Shown: piece after piece, positions 7,634 through 16,700 of the stretch | Position numbering within the stretch: the first letter of the stretch is position 1 | How the letters are laid out: every line of letters starts with the position of its first letter | Assembly: GCA_902826245.1 (NCBI GenBank) | Contig: CADEEA010000009.1 | Location: 1-64,000 of the forward strand | DNA length: 64,000 nt | Direction of reading: 5' to 3' | From: an uncultured Alphaproteobacteria bacterium | GTDB lineage: Bacteria > Pseudomonadota > Alphaproteobacteria > Caulobacterales > Aquidulcibacteraceae | Notes under the pieces: model-generated | Database searches by the model: none | The model's input: only the letters and a program-made list of their open reading frames with translations | What the model was told of the DNA's origin: nothing | Position numbers and translations under genes: made by a program

Positions 7634-8283
7634 GCCTTCTCGGGCAGATTCGGCAGCAACAATTTCTTCGCCAACGAACCATCATAAAGGGTGGGATCAG
7701 TGAGCACCTTGGGCCCACCTTCAGGCGCAGATGTCGTGCGGCCTGAAGTCGAGCCGGGCGTGATTGTCTCTCCGCGCGCGAGCCTGTCCATCAGCGCTTC
7801 CAAAGCGTCGGGCGTCAGGTCCTCGTGGTAGTAATCGTCAATCGCCACCACCGGCGCGTTCACGCACGCGCCAAGGCATTCCATTTCTTCCCAGGAAAAA
7901 TTGCCATCTGCGCTGGGCTGGTGCGCCTCGCCGATGCGGCGCTTGCAAACCGCCTTCAGCTCCTCCGCGCCGCGTAGCATGCACGGCGTGGTGCCGCACA
8001 CCTGGATGTGATGCTTGCCGACCGGGTGCAGGTGGAACATGGTGTAGAAAGTCGCTACTTCGAGTACGCGGATCGTAGGCATGACCAAGAGCTCCGCAAC
8101 CACACGGATCGCGGGCTCGCTCACCCACCCTTCCTGCTTCTGCACCAGCCAAAGAATCGGGATCACCGCCGATTGCTTACGGTCGGACGGGTATTTGGCG
8201 ATCCACCAGCGCACCTGCTCCATCGTCGCGGGGGCGAAGGCGAAGCTCGCGGGCTGTTCGTGGGCTAGTCTTCGGACGCTCAT
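7630..8283 (-). CDS. nuoE: NADH-quinone oxidoreductase subunit E
   Basis: 217 residues from ATG 8283, which overlaps the preceding stop by 4 bp ([16 protein letters not shown]); the longer reading to 8346 is not needed. NuoE holds a 2Fe-2S cluster (N1a) in the thioredoxin-like 24-kDa subunit. Its ligands are seen as 'CGTTPCML' and 'ECLGACVNAP'. The helical N-terminal part 'AVIPILWLVQKQEGW' is typical. The C-terminal extension of roughly 40 residues is Gly/Thr/Pro-rich and variable among alphaproteobacteria. Confidence 0.97.
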   Translation of the reverse strand: MSVRRLAHEQPASFAFAPATMEQVRWWIAKYPSDRKQSAVIPILWLVQKQEGWVSEPAIRVVAELLVMPTIRVLEVATFYTMFHLHPVGKHHIQVCGTTPCMLRGAEELKAVCKRRIGEAHQPSADGNFSWEEMECLGACVNAPVVAIDDYYHEDLTPDALEALMDRLARGETITPGSTSGRTTSAPEGGPKVLTDPTLYDGSLAKKLLLPNLPEKA

Positions 8284-8621
8284 GGCTCTCTCACGAAATC
8301 GACACGCACGATGCCCCGGTCTCTCACCGTATAGATCGCCGCACACCTAAAGCTGTTGCCCGGGGCGCGAACTACGTCTTCATGATCAATCACGACTTCG
8401 CCCACCGAGATCCGGTTCACCAGACGCGCCCGATTCTGCGGAAATTCGGAAAATAGCGCGCCGTAACGGGCGCGAATTGCCGCCAATCCATCGGACGTCA
8501 CCGCGCCATTTAGATCGGCAATCACGCAATCTGAAGAAAAACAATCACAATAAGCGTCGAGGTCCTGCGAATTGTACGCGTCCAGCTGCCGCTGGACCAC
8601 CCTCGCGTTCGCCTCACTCAC
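8280..8621 (-). CDS. SnoaL/NTF2-like protein inserted between nuoD and nuoE
   Basis: 113 residues. The start overlaps the nuoD stop by 4 bp and the stop overlaps the nuoE start by 4 bp, so it is fully embedded in the operon. The pattern '[21 protein letters not shown]', a central 'HEDVV' and a final 'VDFVREP' strand fits the cone-shaped nuclear-transport-factor-2/SnoaL fold (helix followed by a curved beta sheet). Such proteins are small-ligand binders, isomerases or hydrolases. No active site can be assigned. Confidence 0.75.
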
Positions 8622-9838
8622 CGGTCGATCTCCCCGAACACGATGTCGAGTGACCCGAGCACGGCGCTCACGTCAGCAAGCATGTGGCCCTTGCACAAAT
8701 AGTCCATCGCCGCGAGATGCGGAAAGCCCGGCGCACGGATTTTGACGCGATACGGCCGGTTGCCGCCGTCCGCCACCAGATAGACGCCGAACTCCCCCTT
8801 TGGCGCCTCAACCGCCGCGTAAGTCTCGCCCGCGGGCACATGAAAGCCCTCGGTATACAGTTTGAAATGATGGATCAGCGCTTCCATGCTCTGCTTCATC
8901 TCGGCGCGGCGCGGCGGCGCGAATTTGGAATTCTCCGGCAATACTGGCCCCGGATTTTTTCGCAACAAGGCCACGCATTGCTGCATGAGCTTCACGCTCT
9001 CGCGCATTTCCTCAATGCGGCACAGATACCGGTCGTAACAATCGCCGTTCTTGCCGAGAGGGATTTGAAACTTCAGTTCGTTGTAAATTTCGTATGGCTG
9101 GCTGCGGCGCAAGTCCCAGGCAAGACCGGAGCCGCGCACCATGACGCCGGAGAACCCCCATTTGAACGCGTCCTCCTGGGTCACCACGCCGATATCGACA
9201 TTGCGCTGTTTGAAGATTCGGTTCTCTGTAAGCAAACCCTCTATGTCGTCGACAACGCGCGGGTACTGCCCGCACCATTCTTCGATGTCATCGATGAGCT
9301 TCTCCGGAAGGTCCTGGTGCACCCCGCCAGGGCGCACGTAGGCCGCGTGCATACGCGAGCCGGAGGCGCGCTCATAAAACACCATGAGCTTCTCGCGTTC
9401 CTCAAACCCCCACGTGATGGGCGTCATCGCGCCGACATCCATGGCTTGAGTGGTGATGTTGAGGATGTGGTTCAGGATGCGCCCGAGCTCGGAATAGAGA
9501 ACGCGAATGATCCGCGCCCGGCGCGGAACCTCGATCCCGGCGAGCTTCTCTATGGCCAGGCAAAACGCGTGCTCCTGGTTCATCGGCGCGACGTAATCAA
9601 GCCGATCAAAATAGGGCAACGCTTGCAGATAGGTTTTGTACTCGATCAGCTTCTCGGTGCCGCGATGCAGCAAGCCGATGTGCGGATCGACCCGCTCGAC
9701 AATCTCGCCGTCCATTTCCAGCACCAACCGCAGCACGCCGTGCGCAGCCGGGTGCTGGGGGCCGAAATTTATCGTGAAGGTGCGCTTCTCCTCGGGTGAA
9801 GCGAGTGCGTTGGAACTGTCATCGGCCACTGGCGTCAC
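8618..9838 (-). CDS. nuoD: NADH-quinone oxidoreductase subunit D
   Basis: 406 residues, the usual length for the 49-kDa subunit. It forms the quinone-binding cavity with NuoB in the peripheral arm. Characteristic stretches: '[20 protein letters not shown]' at the N-terminus, '[20 protein letters not shown]', '[12 protein letters not shown]', and the C-terminal 'DIVFGEIDR'. The start overlaps the GFA gene stop by 4 bp. Confidence 0.97.
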
Positions 9839-10263
9839 CCATTCCCCGACGCCACGAATGCGGCGATGAATTCTGGCCCGGTCAAACGCTTGGCGTCATT
9901 GGCGAAGCAATAATTCGCCGGCTGCTCGTCGACGAAAATTTCACTGACGAATTTGAAGGCGCCGGGATCGTCAAACGCTTGCGCGGAAACGACGTGCAGT
10001 GCGCCGCCCTGCAGGCGCCAGAACAGCGTGGCGCCGCAAGTCGTGCAGAAGCAGCGTTCGCCATAACCAGAAGATTTGTAGGCCGTGACTTGGCCTTCAT
10101 CCCCGACTTTGACGTCGGATCCGCACTGCACCCCCATGAAGACGCCGCCCGACCATCGCCTGCACATGCTGCAATGGCAGACCCCCATCTCCATGCGCGA
10201 TGGCGCCGCGGTAAATTTCACCGCGCCACAAAGGCAATGGCCCCGCAATGGGATCGCGCTCAT
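9835..10263 (-). CDS. GFA-family zinc-binding protein inserted between nuoC and nuoD
   Basis: 142 residues. The cysteine pattern 'CLCGAVKF', '[12 protein letters not shown]' and '[10 protein letters not shown]' is diagnostic of the GFA (glutathione-dependent formaldehyde-activating enzyme/centromere protein V) fold, which binds two zinc ions. The founding member condenses formaldehyde with glutathione, but most homologues have unknown substrates. It overlaps both nuoC and nuoD by 4 bp, so it is co-translated with complex I subunits. No functional connection is visible beyond this arrangement. Confidence 0.85.
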
Positions 10264-10868
10264 GGCTTCGCCGCCTCCGGCTTCTCATCGTCGGCCGCTT
10301 GATGAGTCATCCCCTCCCAAGGTGAGAGAAAATCGAAGCTGCGAAACGCCTGCATCAGCTTCACCGGCTCATATACGACGCGTTGCTGCTCAGCGTCGTA
10401 GCGCACTTCGACGTGGCCGGAGAGCGGGAAATCCTTGCGCAGGGGAAAGCCTTGGAAGCCGTAATCGGTGAGGATGCGGCGCAAATCCGGGTGGTTTGAA
10501 AACACGATGCCGTACATGTCAAACGCCTCGCGCTCGAACCAGTCCGCGCACGGAAAAATGGAGGCGATCGAGGGAACGGGGTTTTGCTCTTCGGTTTCCA
10601 GCTTGATCCGGACGCGGTGGTTCAAGTGCATCGATAGTAAATGATAGACCACATCGAAGCGCCTCGCGCGCTCGGGGTAATCGACGCCGCAGATGTCGAT
10701 CAGAGTCGTGAACCGGCAACGCGGATCGTCGCGCAGGAATGTGATCAGCGAGAGGATGCCGGAAGCGTTTGCGCAGACTGTGAGTTCGCCTTGCGCCACA
10801 GAATGCGAAAGCGCCGCGCCGGGTTGCGACGAAACAATATGCGCGCCCAAGGCGTTCACGTCGCTCAT
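10260..10868 (-). CDS. nuoC: NADH-quinone oxidoreductase subunit C
   Basis: 202 residues from ATG 10868 ([12 protein letters not shown]), overlapping the nuoB stop by 4 bp. The 30-kDa subunit signature is clear: '[12 protein letters not shown]', '[14 protein letters not shown]' and '[20 protein letters not shown]', then 'VRYD'. NuoC packs against NuoD in the peripheral arm. It is separate from nuoD, unlike the fused nuoCD of enterobacteria. Confidence 0.97.
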
Positions 10869-11416
10869 CGTTCGATATTTCCTTCGCGACGAATTTTGCG
10901 CTGTAATTGCAGCACGCCATACACCAGCGCCTCCGCCGTAGGCGGGCAGCCCGGGATGTAGATATCGACCGGTACAATGCGGTCGCATCCGCGCACAACA
11001 GCGTAGGAATAATGATAATAGCCCCCGCCATTGGCGCACGATCCCATCGAAATCACGTAGCGCGGATTGGGCATCTGGTCGTAGACTTTGCGCAAGGCCG
11101 GGGCCATCTTGTTGGTGAGCGTGCCGGCCACGATCATAACGTCGCTCTGCCGCGGCGAGGCGCGCGGCGCAAAGCCAAAGCGCTCAAGGTCGTAACGCGG
11201 ATTGCCGGCCTGCATCATCTCGACCGCACAACAGGCCAACCCGAACGTCATCCACATCAGCGAGCCCGTGCGCGCCCAGGTGATGAGATCGTCGGCGGCG
11301 GCGACGAGAAAGCCCTTGTCCGCGAGTTGGTTCGACAGACCCGTATAGAACGGATCGTCCTCGCGAACGGGATACCCGCCCTCAACGCCAGCCTTTGCAG
11401 GTGAGGTCACTCCCAT
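10865..11416 (-). CDS. nuoB: NADH-quinone oxidoreductase subunit B
   Basis: 183 residues from ATG 11416 ([14 protein letters not shown]), preferred because an AAGAAGGG ribosome-binding site precedes it; an in-frame ATG at 11437 would add seven residues. NuoB binds cluster N2 next to the quinone. Ligands are visible in '[11 protein letters not shown]', 'MGSCANGGG' and '[10 protein letters not shown]'. It overlaps the end of nuoA by 10 bp and nuoC by 4 bp. Confidence 0.96.
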
Positions 11417-11784
11417 TCGAGCGCGCCCTTCTTCCATTCATAGACAAAACCAACTGTCAGCACACCGAGGAACGCCATCATCGACCAGAACGTGAACTGA
11501 GCAACTTCCGGCGCCAGGTGCTTGAGCGATAGCGCCCAGGGAAAAAGGAAAGCCACTTCCAAGTCGAAAATAATGAACAGGATTGAGACCAGGTAAAACC
11601 GTACATCGAACTTCATGCGCGCGTCATCGAAGGCGTTAAACCCGCATTCGTAGGCCGACACCTTTTCCTTGTCTGGCGATTTCGGCGCCACAACCCAGGC
11701 TGCAATCAGGAACCCCGCGCCCAGGGCGGTGGCTATCGCGAAGAAAATGACGATAGGGAGATAGTCGGTGAGATCGAGGCCCAT
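11407..11784 (-). CDS. nuoA: NADH-quinone oxidoreductase subunit A
   Basis: 125 residues from ATG 11784 ([15 protein letters not shown]). Three transmembrane helices are visible (about 8-32, 68-88, 95-115) with the conserved loop '[20 protein letters not shown]' between the first two. NuoA is the first membrane subunit and helps connect the membrane and peripheral arms. It is the first gene of the operon. The 122-bp gap upstream separates it from an XRE regulator on the same strand and should hold the nuo promoter, though no convincing boxes stand out. Confidence 0.96.
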
Positions 11785-11906
11785 TTTTTCTTTCCCGGCG
11801 CTCCACCTAAGCCGCGTCGGCGCCACGCGCCAGAGCCCAGGCGCCGCACCCGCGAAATCGGCGCGGAAGCTAGTGGCGCTCGTCGGGGATGGCAACCTTG
11901 CCCGAA

Positions 11907-12296
11907 TTACCCGGGCGTGTTTCGCAGCGCGCTCGACGACGTAAGCGCGGCAGCGAGGTCGATAAGGACTTGCCGCCCAGCAGAATTCAGCCGGGGAAGA
12001 TGTTCGGCCAGCGATTTCAACGTGAAATCGTCGATCTCAGGCAATGAGGCAGGCGCCGCAGAACCCGGCACGAAGGCGCTCACTTGGCTGCGGAGCACTC
12101 CAGCGATCCGCACGAGGGCGGCCGCCGACACCCTGTTGGCGCCCTTCTCATATTTCTGGACCTGCTGGAAACTGACCCCGATTGCTTCCGCCATCGCCTC
12201 CTGGCTCAGGCCGATCGCCATCCGCCGGGCGCGGACTTGCAGCCCAATATATCGATCGATCTCGGTCGCCGCTCGGGGATTGTCGTCAGCCGCCAC
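11907..12296 (-). CDS. XRE-family helix-turn-helix regulator
   Basis: 129 residues. A cro/CI-type HTH occupies about 14-70: '[19 protein letters not shown]' leads into '[20 protein letters not shown]', a strong XRE signature. The C-terminal part is a helical tail without a known ligand domain. It lies divergent to a second HTH gene; an inverted repeat TGGGGT-N6-ACCCCA begins 11 bp upstream of its start, suggesting autoregulation (inference). It precedes nuoA on the same strand, so it may influence or be co-transcribed with nuo. Confidence 0.85.
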
Positions 12297-12306
12297 GCGC
12301 TTGGAA

Positions 12307-12324
12307 TGGGGTCTGTATACCCCA
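12307..12324. promoter_or_regulatory. Candidate operator 1: TGGGGT-N6-ACCCCA
   Basis: A perfect 6-bp inverted repeat with a 6-bp spacer (CTGTAT), 11 bp upstream of the leftward XRE gene. The same TGGGG-N-CCCCA architecture recurs at 12366-12383. It is probably a regulator-binding site overlapping the promoter or leader of the leftward gene (inference). Confidence 0.5.
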
Positions 12325-12331
12325 ATGTCAA

Positions 12332-12358
12332 GGGCGCCAGTCTCGGCTTCTGGCGCCC
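12332..12358. promoter_or_regulatory. 9-bp inverted repeat between divergent regulators
   Basis: GGGCGCCAG and CTGGCGCCC are perfect inverted copies separated by TCTCGGCTT. They lie midway between the two TGGGG-type palindromes in the 86-bp divergent spacer. This could be a hairpin in the leader RNA or a second operator class. Confidence 0.45.
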
Positions 12359-12364
12359 GCGAAG

Positions 12365-12384
12365 ATGGGGCATACCCGCCCCAT
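12365..12384. promoter_or_regulatory. Candidate operator 2: ATGGGGC-N6-GCCCCAT over the start codon
   Basis: A perfect 7-bp inverted repeat with a 6-bp spacer (ATACCC). Its right arm runs into the ATG (12383) of the rightward HTH gene and it covers the ribosome-binding region. Core and spacing match the element at 12307-12324, about 59 bp away. The geometry suits repression of the rightward gene by a dimeric regulator. Confidence 0.5.
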
Positions 12385-12769
12385 GGGAGTCGTTGCCGAC
12401 CGCATCCGCACCCGGCTCAAGCTGCTGGGGCTTAGCCCGCGCGCGGCTTCGCTGCGCGCTGGGCGCCAGCCCTTTGCCGTGCGCGATATCCTCGCTGGCC
12501 GCAATGAAAACCCGAAGTCGGACTTGATCCTCGATCTGGCGCGCGCCCTGGTTTGCTCCACGGACTACCTTCTTGGCCTCAGCGACAAACCGGCGAGTGC
12601 GCTCTCGGCAATCGATATTGACCCCAAACTCATCGGCGCGCTTCGGCGCATTCCAGCCTCGGAGCAAGGCACCGTGCGGCGTATGCTTGAGGGCGTCGCT
12701 GACGCCGCCCACGCCGAATTCGACGCCGACAGTGCGTTGAAGCCAAAGAAACCGCTCAAACCCGGCTGA
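12383..12769 (+). CDS. Helix-turn-helix (XRE-like) protein, 128 aa
   Basis: Starts at ATG 12383 (MGVVADRIRTRLKLLGLSPR); an upstream in-frame ATG at 12365 is possible. The HTH spans about 5-58: 'LGLSPRAASLRAGRQPFAVR' then 'DILAGRNENPKSDLILDLARALVCSTDYLLG', the pattern seen in phage-repressor-like XRE proteins. The C-terminal half (about 65-128) is helical with a lysine/proline-rich end and no known sensor motif. It is divergent from the other XRE gene and shares palindromes with it. Confidence 0.75.
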   Translation: MGVVADRIRTRLKLLGLSPRAASLRAGRQPFAVRDILAGRNENPKSDLILDLARALVCSTDYLLGLSDKPASALSAIDIDPKLIGALRRIPASEQGTVRRMLEGVADAAHAEFDADSALKPKKPLKPG

Positions 12770-12933
12770 CAAATCGGCGACATCTGCGGCGTCAGCACTA
12801 AATCAATGTCGAGCGTCCGCGTCGCCGCCCCCATCAGAGCAAGCGCCAACACTGGACCAACAGCACGTCGCATTTTCATAGCCCCGCGCTATAGCCCGCG
12901 ACTATTGCTGCTGTATTTCGTTGAACCGCCAAA

Positions 12934-13010
12934 TGGCGCGAGTGACGGGGCTCGAACCCGCGACCTTCGGCGTGACAGGCCGACGCTCTAACCAACTGAG
13001 CTACACCCGC
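12934..13010 (-). tRNA. tRNA-Asp (GTC anticodon)
   Basis: 77 nt including an encoded CCA, read leftwards from 13010. The acceptor stem is GCGGGTG/CACTCGC (one G-T pair), with D-arm AGCTCAGTTGGTTAGAGC, anticodon stem TCGGC/GCCGA with loop CTGTCAC (anticodon GTC), and T-arm CGGGTTCGAGCCCCG. Confidence 0.97.
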
Positions 13011-13248
13011 GTTCCGCAGGGCCTAGCGGCCCCTGCACGAGACGCGAGGGGTTAGGACAAGCGCCGCCATCGGTCAAGACCGCGTCCGGGCCCACTGTAT
13101 CACTGTCGGAGGGGCTCGTTACCCATGGGATCATGATCGTGGATGCTTGATCCGGCGATCGCGCACGCGGCGCTAGGCCGCGTCAGCTCTGACTTGATCA
13201 GGCGCCTGAGCGGCGGGAGAGTACCCCGGTCTGTGGAAGGTGTTCTTC

Positions 13249-13734
13249 ATGCGTCAGCTTATCCTTGCAGCGATTGTGGCCCTTGCTGCATGCAGCCCGC
13301 CTGCGCCATCTTCCCCAACGAGTTCGACCGCACCAGACGCCGGCGAGGCGCAGGCGCTCGCCGCCGCGCTCCAGGCCAAGGTGGCAGCACTCCCCAAACC
13401 CTATGACGGGGCCGACTACGAGGCAGGCCGACGCGCCTTCGGCCAATGCCGCTCCTGCCATTCGATCGACGCTGACGCGCCCAGCCGGGGAACTGGGCCG
13501 AACCTCCATGGGATCATCGGCCGCAAGATCGGCGCGGAGGCCGATTTCGAATACTCCCAAGCAGCAGCGTCGGCCGATTTCACTTGGGATGCAGCCAATC
13601 TCGACCAATGGCTGACGAGCCCGCAGGCATTTCTGCCTGGGAACCGCATGAGTTTTGTCGGCGTACGCAACGAGAAGCAAAGACGCGACCTGATCGCCTA
13701 CCTGATGGTGGCCTCAGCCGAGCCGAAGGAATGA
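13249..13734 (+). CDS. Lipoprotein c-type cytochrome
   Basis: 161 residues from ATG 13249, chosen over an in-frame GTG at 13240 because a GGAAGG ribosome-binding site lies 8 bp upstream. The lipoprotein signal MRQLILAAIVALAAC has its lipobox cysteine at 15. A short Pro/Ser/Thr linker precedes a class I cytochrome c domain with the haem motif 'CRSCH' and a distal methionine in 'GNRMSFVGV'. It resembles membrane-anchored cytochrome c552-like electron carriers that feed terminal oxidases. It converges on the RND pump gene with no gap. Confidence 0.85.
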   Translation: MRQLILAAIVALAACSPPAPSSPTSSTAPDAGEAQALAAALQAKVAALPKPYDGADYEAGRRAFGQCRSCHSIDADAPSRGTGPNLHGIIGRKIGAEADFEYSQAAASADFTWDAANLDQWLTSPQAFLPGNRMSFVGVRNEKQRRDLIAYLMVASAEPKE

Positions 13735-16700
13735 TCACTCAGCGGCGTGGCCCGCCGCCTCGTTCTGCTCAAATTCCTTGATGGCGCGGGCCGCACTTTC
13801 CGGCGACTTGGTGTAGCGCGCGAGCAGGTCGTAGAACACCGGCGCCACAAACAGCGTCAACATCGTTGCGAGCGTCAGCCCAAAGAAGGTCACCACGCCG
13901 ATGGGCAGTCGGCTTTCCGCGCCCGCCCCGTGGCCAAATATCAACGGAATAGCGCCGGCCACAGTCGCAACGGACGTCATCAACACGGGGCGAATGCGCA
14001 AATCCGCCGCCTCAAGGATCGCTTCCCGGGCCGTTCGCCCCTGATCGCGCAATTGATTGGCGAACTCCACGATCAGGATGCCATTCTTGGCGGCGAGCGC
14101 GATCAGGATGATCAATCCGATCTGGCTGTAGATGTTAAGCGTGCCGCCGAACAGGTAGAGCCCAAACAGCCCCCCTGTCAGCGCCATCGGCACCGACAGC
14201 ATGATCACCAGCGGATGGATGAAGCTCTCGAACTGCGCCGCCAGAACCAAAAACACCACCACCAGCGCGAACCCGAATGCAAAACCTACGGCGCCCGTCG
14301 ATTGTTTGAACTGCCGGGCGGCGCCGGAATATTCGATGCTCACCGCGTCACCAGCGATTTCCTCGCGCGCCAATGATTCCAATTGCTTCAACGCGTCGCC
14401 CAAAGGGTATTTTCCCGCAATCGACGCCGAAACCGTGACCGCAGCTTGCCTGTTCATGCGCCGCCGCTCAGCGGAATCGCCGATGGTGCGCATCGTCACC
14501 AGGGTCGATAACGGCACGAGTTCGTTAGTGCGGTCCGAGCGGACGAATTTGTCGCCAAGATCGGCGATGTCGGAGCGTTCGTCGCGCTCGGCCTGCAAAT
14601 AGACGTTATATTCTTCGCCACGGTCGGTGATGGTGTTGATGCGCCGGGCGCCCATAGTCGCCTCCAGCGTGCGCCCGATCGATTGCACGGAAACCCCAAG
14701 CGCAGCGGCGCGTTCGCGGTCGATATCGATCATCACCCGCGGCGAGGTGGGTTCGAAATCCAGACGCGGGCGTTGGAAGTTTGGGTTGTCGCGCAGGCGA
14801 TCGACAATGCGTCCGGCAATCCCGCTCAATTGCTCATAGGTCGATCCCAGCAGTACAATTGAGGCCGCCTCGCCGCCGCCGCGGCCTTGGAACGGGCTCT
14901 GGCCGCGGACGCGAATAGTGGCGCCGGGGATTTGCGAAAGCCGGCGATTCAGTTCTGTCTCGATCTCGGCGGCGCTCCGCGAGCGATCTTCCCAATCGGC
15001 GAGGAGGATGCGTGCTATGCCGCCGGAAAATCTGCTGCTGTCGCCGAAGCCGGGCGCCATGGCGGTCACACGCTGAGCTTCACCGCTTTCGACGTAGGAG
15101 AGCAGCACCTCTTCCACTTGCCCCATTATACGGCTGGTGTAGTCGAAACCCGCTCCTTCCGGCGCGCTCACCACGACGCCAAGAACGCCGCGGTCTTCAG
15201 GGGGCGTAAGTTCCGAAGAGAGCTGGACGAAAATTAGCCCGCCCAGCACTGCGACGCCGCCCGCGACTGCAAGAACCGCCAGCTTAGCCGCCAGCGCCGC
15301 CTCCAAAGAAGCACGATAGGACGCACGCAAAGAGGTGAGCGCGTTATCGACGAAGCGGGTTAGCCGTGTACTCGACTTGATCGGCTTCATCAATTTGGAA
15401 CACATCATCGGCGAGAGCGTGAGCGACGCGAAGGCCGAGATCACGACGACACCTGCGATGGTGACCGCCAACTCGACGAAAAGCCGGCCGACAAATCCAC
15501 CCACAAACAGCAGCGGCACAAAGACCGCCACCAGCACCGCGGATGTCGCTACAATCGCGAAGAAGACTTGCTCGGTCCCGCGCTCAGCCGCGATCAGGGG
15601 AGGCTCGCCAAGCGTATCGACCCGGCGCTGACCGTTTTCGAGCACGACGATACTGTCGTCCACCACCAAGCCGATCGCCAGGACCAGAGCCATCAGCGTC
15701 AAGAGATTTATCGAAAATCCAAACATAGCCATGATCCCGAACGCGCCGATCAGACACACGGGGATCACGGCCGCCGGTACAAACGCCGCGCGCCAGGAGC
15801 CGAGAAACAGGAAAATGACAAGGACGACGAGCGCCGTCGACTCCAGCAGCGTGCGCCCAACTTGGGCGATGGCGCGGTCGATGAACAAAGTCGCGTCGTA
15901 GGTGAGGATGAGGTTCGTACCCTCCGGCAGCGACGGTTTCAGCGCCTCGATTTCGGCCTTCACGCGCCGCGCGACATCGAGCGCGTTCGAACGCGACTGG
16001 CGCACGATCCCAAGCCCGATCTGGTCTACGCCATTGCCGCGGAACATCCGTCGCGTTTCCTCTGGCGCAATCTCGATCCGGGCGAGGTCCCCGAGGCGCA
16101 CCGCCGTCTCGTCCCCAGCCTGCGCGCGTAGAGGCAACCGCGCGAATTCCTCGGGCGTCTCGAACGTCCGCGCGACACGCAATTGATAGTCCCGTTGCTG
16201 GCTTTGCACATAGCCAGCCGGCGACTCGACATTCTGCGCCCGAAGCGCATTTTCAACATCCTGCACCGTGATCCCACGTGCGGCCATGGCGTTGGTGTCG
16301 AGCCAAATCCGCAGCGCGCGCCGATAACCGCCGCCAATCTGCACGTTGGCCACGCCATCAAGCACCGCGAGTCGGTCGACAATATATCGGTCCGCGTAAT
16401 CCGTGAGCGCTATGCGGTCGAGCGTACGTGACTCAAGGCTGAACCAGATGATCGCCTCTGCGTCGGAATCCGCCTTTCGGATAACAGGGTCGGTGAGATC
16501 GGCTGGCAATTGCCCGCGTGCTCGGTCCACAGCATTGCGAACGTCGTTGGCGGCATCTTCGATGTCGCGGCTGAGCATGAATTCAACATTGACCGAGGCG
16601 CGTCCGTCGCGGCTGGAGCTCGAAATGGCGTCGACGCCGTCAATGCCGGAGAGCTGGTCTTCGATTACGCGCGTGATCTGATTTTCCACCACCTGCGCCG

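Follow-up and report, generated by a model that had tools for sequence, protein, structure and literature searches.

The 86-bp spacer (12297-12382) that separates two divergent HTH genes in a 64,000-nucleotide stretch of an uncultured alphaproteobacterial genome (hereafter, the window) is probably the control region of a stand-alone phage-type repressor switch. The rightward gene, P0002 (12383..12769, + strand), encodes a 128 aa repressor-like HTH protein without an S24 domain. The leftward gene, P0001 (11907..12296, - strand), encodes a 129 aa XRE/HTH_3 protein that begins with GTG and takes the place of the second regulator of phage immunity regions. The spacer runs from the P0001 GTG (12296) to the P0002 ATG (12383), and both genes lie in a block of ~1.03 kb (11897..12930, unstranded) between nuoA and tRNA-Asp; homology with the congeners breaks off near 11896 and returns near 12931. 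Under the reading that we favor, P0002 is a short member of the P22 C2/S24 repressor lineage and would repress both itself and P0001, with control running mainly one way; the proposed operator binding by P0002 and the proposed direction of control are read from the DNA sequence. A phage-type repressor and its control layout appear to persist here without a phage, over a regulator of a family common to bacteria and phages. If the wiring is real, the locus would be a compact case of phage switches turning into host regulatory parts.

Two palindromes were read directly in the spacer. O1 (12307-12324, unstranded) is TGGGG TCTGTATA CCCCA, in full TGGGGTCTGTATACCCCA, and O2 (12366-12383, unstranded) is TGGGG CATACCCG CCCCA, in full TGGGGCATACCCGCCCCA; read in the same orientation, the two are TGGGGTATACAGACCCCA and TGGGGCATACCCGCCCCA. 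They are offset by 59 bp from start to start, and 8 bp separate TGGGG from CCCCA in both. We also found a 9-bp inverted repeat, GGGCGCCAG-N9-CTGGCGCCC, between them (12332-12358, unstranded). All three elements share a symmetry center at 12345, around which the 35-nt arms are 74% complementary. O2 overlaps the A of the P0002 ATG (12383) and spans 12365-12384 when 7-bp arms are counted. The first-pass annotation of this DNA had described two palindromes about 59 bp apart that adjoin two divergent HTH genes, the second reaching over the rightward start codon, with a separate 9-bp repeat in between, and each of these elements was present in the sequence. Its equal 6-bp spacers were not: the pattern TGGGG-N6-CCCCA has 0 matches in the window, and a 6-bp spacing is true only when each arm is extended by the next complementary base.

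Exact TGGGG-N8-CCCCA sites number 4 in the whole assembly (3.2 Mb, 104 contigs), 2 of them in the spacer, and the control pattern, which is the same motif read backwards, has 2. The search for more TGGGG-N-CCCCA sites, a step proposed along with the earlier description, added two exact sites to the pair in the spacer; both lie within ORFs, a location that speaks against them as further P0002 targets in the genome. When one mismatch was allowed, the tighter form TGGGGNATANNNNCCCCA was found in the genome only at the two spacer sites and at the C28 one of the other two exact sites, and the middle repeat, in its inner form with 8-bp arms, occurs a single time. Chance was modeled with 20,000 first-order Markov 89-mers that had the composition of the block itself. 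Two identical palindromes with 5-bp arms and an equal gap arose in 24/20,000 samples, a 9-bp inverted repeat arose in 176/20,000, and the paired palindromes together with a 9-bp repeat arose in 3/20,000.

We infer one promoter for each gene within the spacer. The predicted P0001 promoter joins the leftward -35 hexamer TTGACA (12326..12331, - strand) to a weak -10 hexamer, CATTCC (12303-12308, - strand), over 17 bp, and O1 is located between the two. The predicted rightward -10 hexamer, CATACC (12371..12376, + strand), is weak and was assigned from its position, 6 nt before the P0002 ATG; the P0002 transcript is probably leaderless. About where CATACC sits, three of the repressor loci compared below have GATAAT (L118), TAGAAT (L146) and TAATAT (L097). 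A promoter scan found no promoter in the spacer.

In the proposed mechanism, a P0002 dimer would bind both TGGGG-N8-CCCCA operators. At O1, in the spacer of TTGACA-N17-CATTCC, it would shut off P0001, and at O2, over CATACC and the ATG, it would limit its own level. The targets of P0001 probably lie elsewhere in the genome, so that control is expected to run mainly one way. As for the middle repeat, it may be a site for a second factor or an aid to looping, or it may be incidental; no counterpart at a fixed place was found among the loci of repressor homologs.

In sequence, P0002 is similar to the DNA-binding half of S24-type repressors from Alphaproteobacteria. Its best homologs are 38-45% identical over the HTH, repressor families of PHROGs match it at E about 1e-4, and among PDB entries the P22 C2 repressor matches it best (E 0.013). 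Pfam gave only a weak HTH_31 match, with no match to the Peptidase_S24 domain, which was found in 7/10 scanned homologs (ten picked mostly for layout). The S24 domain has a role in repressor dimerization. Among named phages, 115 records reached E 10, with E 0.009 as the lowest value in the 20 that were listed, and the best named plasmid match reached E 5e-9. A Microvirga plasmid encodes a related protein that is similarly short (126 aa), with an upstream layout unlike that of the window. Counting the window's own genome each time, P0002 has matches at E 0.01 or better in 19/398 genomes of the order and 62/385 genomes of the class, and at E 0.001 in 2/101 genomes. Two congeners match in the order-wide search (E 0.004 and 0.0098, 33-34% identity). 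Pattern scans found no P0002 ortholog in the genome contigs and viral contigs searched, among which records near the window's genome are possibly absent. The fold of P0002, predicted without an alignment, has low confidence (mean pLDDT 49.6). For the P0002 switch as a whole, we infer a phage origin.

We had 52 repressor-like loci in hand for comparison of the upstream regions, and counted the 42 with a local match at E 0.01, leaving out ten. A subset of the repressors has a common layout, in which an operator is followed by TGTCAA (the leftward -35 TTGACA) and then by ~50 bp to the repressor start. GTCAA, complementary to the TTGAC of a leftward -35, precedes the start by exactly 50 or 51 bp in 7/42 loci (L118, L101, L137, L138, L140, L146 and L124), of which L137, L138 and L140 belong to a single genus and L124 has an uncertain start; the distance to the P0002 start in the window is 51 bp. 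The operator positions tested were chosen after the loci were viewed, with the window's position as the reference, and by this measure an inverted repeat is centered -12 to -10.5 from GTCAA in 6/13 loci with GTCAA 35-75 bp upstream of the start (the O1 center is at -11), a count that never rose above 3 in 2000 base shuffles. With the start codon as the reference point, 8/42 loci have a repeat at the O1 position, against at most 5 in 500 shuffles. The O2 center lies at -8 relative to the ATG, a value also seen in L137 and L140 (-9 in L101), and this position, matched in 3/42 loci, is suggestive only, because 45/500 shuffles also reach 3. Operators of like form, TGCGG-N8-CCGCA, are present in the relatives L118, L137 and L140. 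A subset of the repressors agrees with the window in the place and shape of the operator and differs in its sequence, and most of the 42 loci are without the layout. The phage-like character noted in the first-pass annotation was supported both by the kinship of P0002 to S24-type repressors and by the occurrence of the spacer layout upstream of a subset of them.

In six scanned repressor loci, the leftward gene encodes a small partner, 70-83 aa long. A match to phrog_7669 was found for 4/6 of these partners, with E values no higher than 3.3e-4 for three of them and E 0.039 for the fourth, and no match to it was found for the other 2/6. The three loci from one genus (L137, L138 and L140) keep the operator layout, but their leftward gene is another one, of ~78-80 aa; in L137, the only one of the three scanned, its product weakly resembles DUF6103 at E 0.0064, which falls short of the cut-off.

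Like the control regions of S24-type repressors, such as the one on Sinorhizobium medicae plasmid pMl3 (L146), the window combines a repressor HTH, an operator in the spacer of the leftward promoter, GTCAA 51 bp before the start and a repeat at the start codon. However, P0002 has no S24 domain, and its partner is a PraR/CdxA-type regulator instead of a small phrog_7669-type protein. In the lambda/P22 immunity region, the repressor diverges from a second regulator, several operators are present, three of them alike, and the repressor transcript is leaderless. The window likewise has a repressor-like gene divergent from a second HTH gene, operator-like palindromes in the spacer that separates the two and a probably leaderless repressor transcript, and P0002 appears homologous to phage repressors by the PHROGs and P22 C2 matches given above. 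In contrast to the three alike operators of the lambda-type region, the window has two matching palindromes and one unlike repeat, and whereas Cro binds the shared operators, P0001 is not predicted to do so.

P0001 appears to belong to the PraR/CdxA/TgrL XRE family. Both membership features, the HTH_3 domain (PF01381, E 7.4e-12) and the family recognition helix, are present, and the helix FQQVQKYE is common to P0001 and the phiCbK homolog (CbK_gp216), which is presumably tgrL. Family matches were found in 101/101 genomes searched (the window's own included), and relatives are present in many alphaproteobacterial genomes among the matches listed and also in phages (67 records, including phiCbK) and plasmids (751 records). 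According to PMC10688885, the family comprises CdxA, CdxB, RtrA, RtrB and phage TgrL in Caulobacter and phiCbK, together with rhizobial PraR, and it affects adhesion, gene transfer agents and phage yield in Caulobacter. PMC5527310 gives the PraR consensus as CAAC-N5-GTTG and describes natural PraR sites at one promoter with two or three substitutions; PMC4149787 gives TTGCAA as an alternative motif and describes repression by PraR of its own gene in R. leguminosarum. Judged against these sources (PMC10688885, PMC5527310, PMC4149787), P0001 is alike to the PraR/CdxA/RtrA/TgrL family in sequence and recognition helix. Its gene faces a phage-type repressor, and no P0002-like neighbor was found at 118 homolog loci.

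The block that holds the two genes is lineage-specific. DNA like it is absent from 28/28 congeneric nuoA loci compared, and a DNA search in 29 other genomes of the genus gave short stretches only, mostly the HTH part of P0001 paralogs. The distance from nuoA to tRNA-Asp is 1150 bp in the window. ARAGORN placed the congeners' tRNA-Asp 36-344 bp from nuoA in 16/28 loci and 964 bp away in one (L067); a contig end cuts it in 1/28 loci, and none was found within at most 1.5 kb of nuoA in 10/28, although a 48-bp tRNA-like match lies ~1.3 kb from nuoA in L059 and L063. The closest relative by NuoA is G022 (99%). As a separate observation, tRNA-Asp has the opposite orientation at the locus of this nearest relative (L048) and at L051, L058 and L072. 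The G+C content of the block (63.4%) equals that of the window, so nothing in its composition points to a recent origin. The block ends within ~10 bp of the tRNA-Asp 3' end and ~160 bp after the P0002 stop, and the tRNA is the sole structured RNA in 10000-15000. Neither direct repeats of 12 bp or more in 11800-13050 nor 10-bp copies of the tRNA-Asp end in 11801-12900 were found, and tRNA-guided integration was rejected on this basis. We also observed an ORF with a signal-peptide-like beginning (12565-12879, - strand) that overlaps the 3' part of P0002 and may be what remains of a gene that the insertion interrupted.

The divergent layout, the Cro position of P0001 and the third repeat between two operators are also what a full lambda-like double-negative switch would offer, in which P0001, acting as Cro, would bind the spacer as well, perhaps at the middle 9-bp repeat, and repression would be mutual. 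The reported self-repression of PraR fits this explanation, and because natural PraR sites lie 2-3 bases off the consensus, P0001 could still bind the spacer, where a 3-mismatch site (12291-12303) touches the left end. However, this is the sole such site. No CAAC-N5-GTTG with fewer than 3 of 8 mismatches was found in the spacer, sites with 3 or fewer mismatches occupy 1/98 positions touching it versus ~2.9/98 expected from the window, and TTGCAA is absent from the block. With the match to the PraR site no better than chance and TTGCAA missing, binding by P0001 is unsupported, though it may still occur. The palindromes and the middle repeat were absent upstream of 109/109 P0001 homologs, which is indirect evidence against P0001 as a palindrome binder. 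An earlier suggestion of a switch between two HTH proteins, both binding the palindromes, was not supported for P0001. We consider mutual repression unlikely, and one-way control by P0002 is the likelier of the two, because the spacer is without a good P0001 site. The HTH kinship of P0002, the GTCAA spacing, the O1 position and the like-form operators in relatives all argue for the P0002 switch that we propose, and the lack of a P0002 ortholog and of an S24 domain, the weak -10 hexamers and the weak matches to named phages argue against it. A bolder and less likely reading has a phage lysogeny-type switch rewired, with a host-lifestyle regulator of the PraR/CdxA/TgrL kind as its output gene. 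If this is true, inactivation of P0002 would flip an adhesion or phage-response program and would not induce a phage.

Could the locus instead be a decayed prophage remnant without present function, two genes and their operators left of a larger element? A lineage-specific block beside a tRNA gene, with just two recognizable genes and a signal-peptide-like short ORF (leftward from 12879) that is perhaps a relic, would fit this history. But both ORFs are intact, the operators are exact palindromes, and the searches for direct repeats and tRNA-end copies were negative, which makes a remnant quite improbable. Least probable by far is a toxin-antitoxin pair with an autoregulating antitoxin. P0001 has weak matches to YdaS (E 5e-5) and to a HipB-like model (E 5e-10), but both fall under the cut-offs, which only plain HTH models reach. 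No toxin domain was found in either gene, and the two are divergent, not in a tandem operon, and both encode HTH proteins. The toxin-antitoxin style once proposed for this locus found no backing, with every toxin or antitoxin model falling short of its curated cut-off. PADLOC, whose output has no cut-offs, gave matches to RmrA and capH.

Phage-type immunity switches and orphan repressors are already known kinds, and the unusual point of the switch that we propose for P0002 is the exchange of the partner gene, which rests on one genome. P0001-like genes were found in 2/52 repressor-like loci, in both cases downstream on the repressor's strand and not divergent. No neighbor of P0001 homologs resembled P0002 better than E 0.066 in 118 loci (109 distinct places). 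By title and abstract opening, none of the open-licence papers that our searches listed dealt with a P0002-type repressor paired with a PraR-type gene. Outside the block, we observed two small ORFs on the - strand among the nuo genes, at 8280-8621 and 9835-10263, which we take to be SnoaL-like and GFA-like, respectively; they are unusual company for a nuo cluster.
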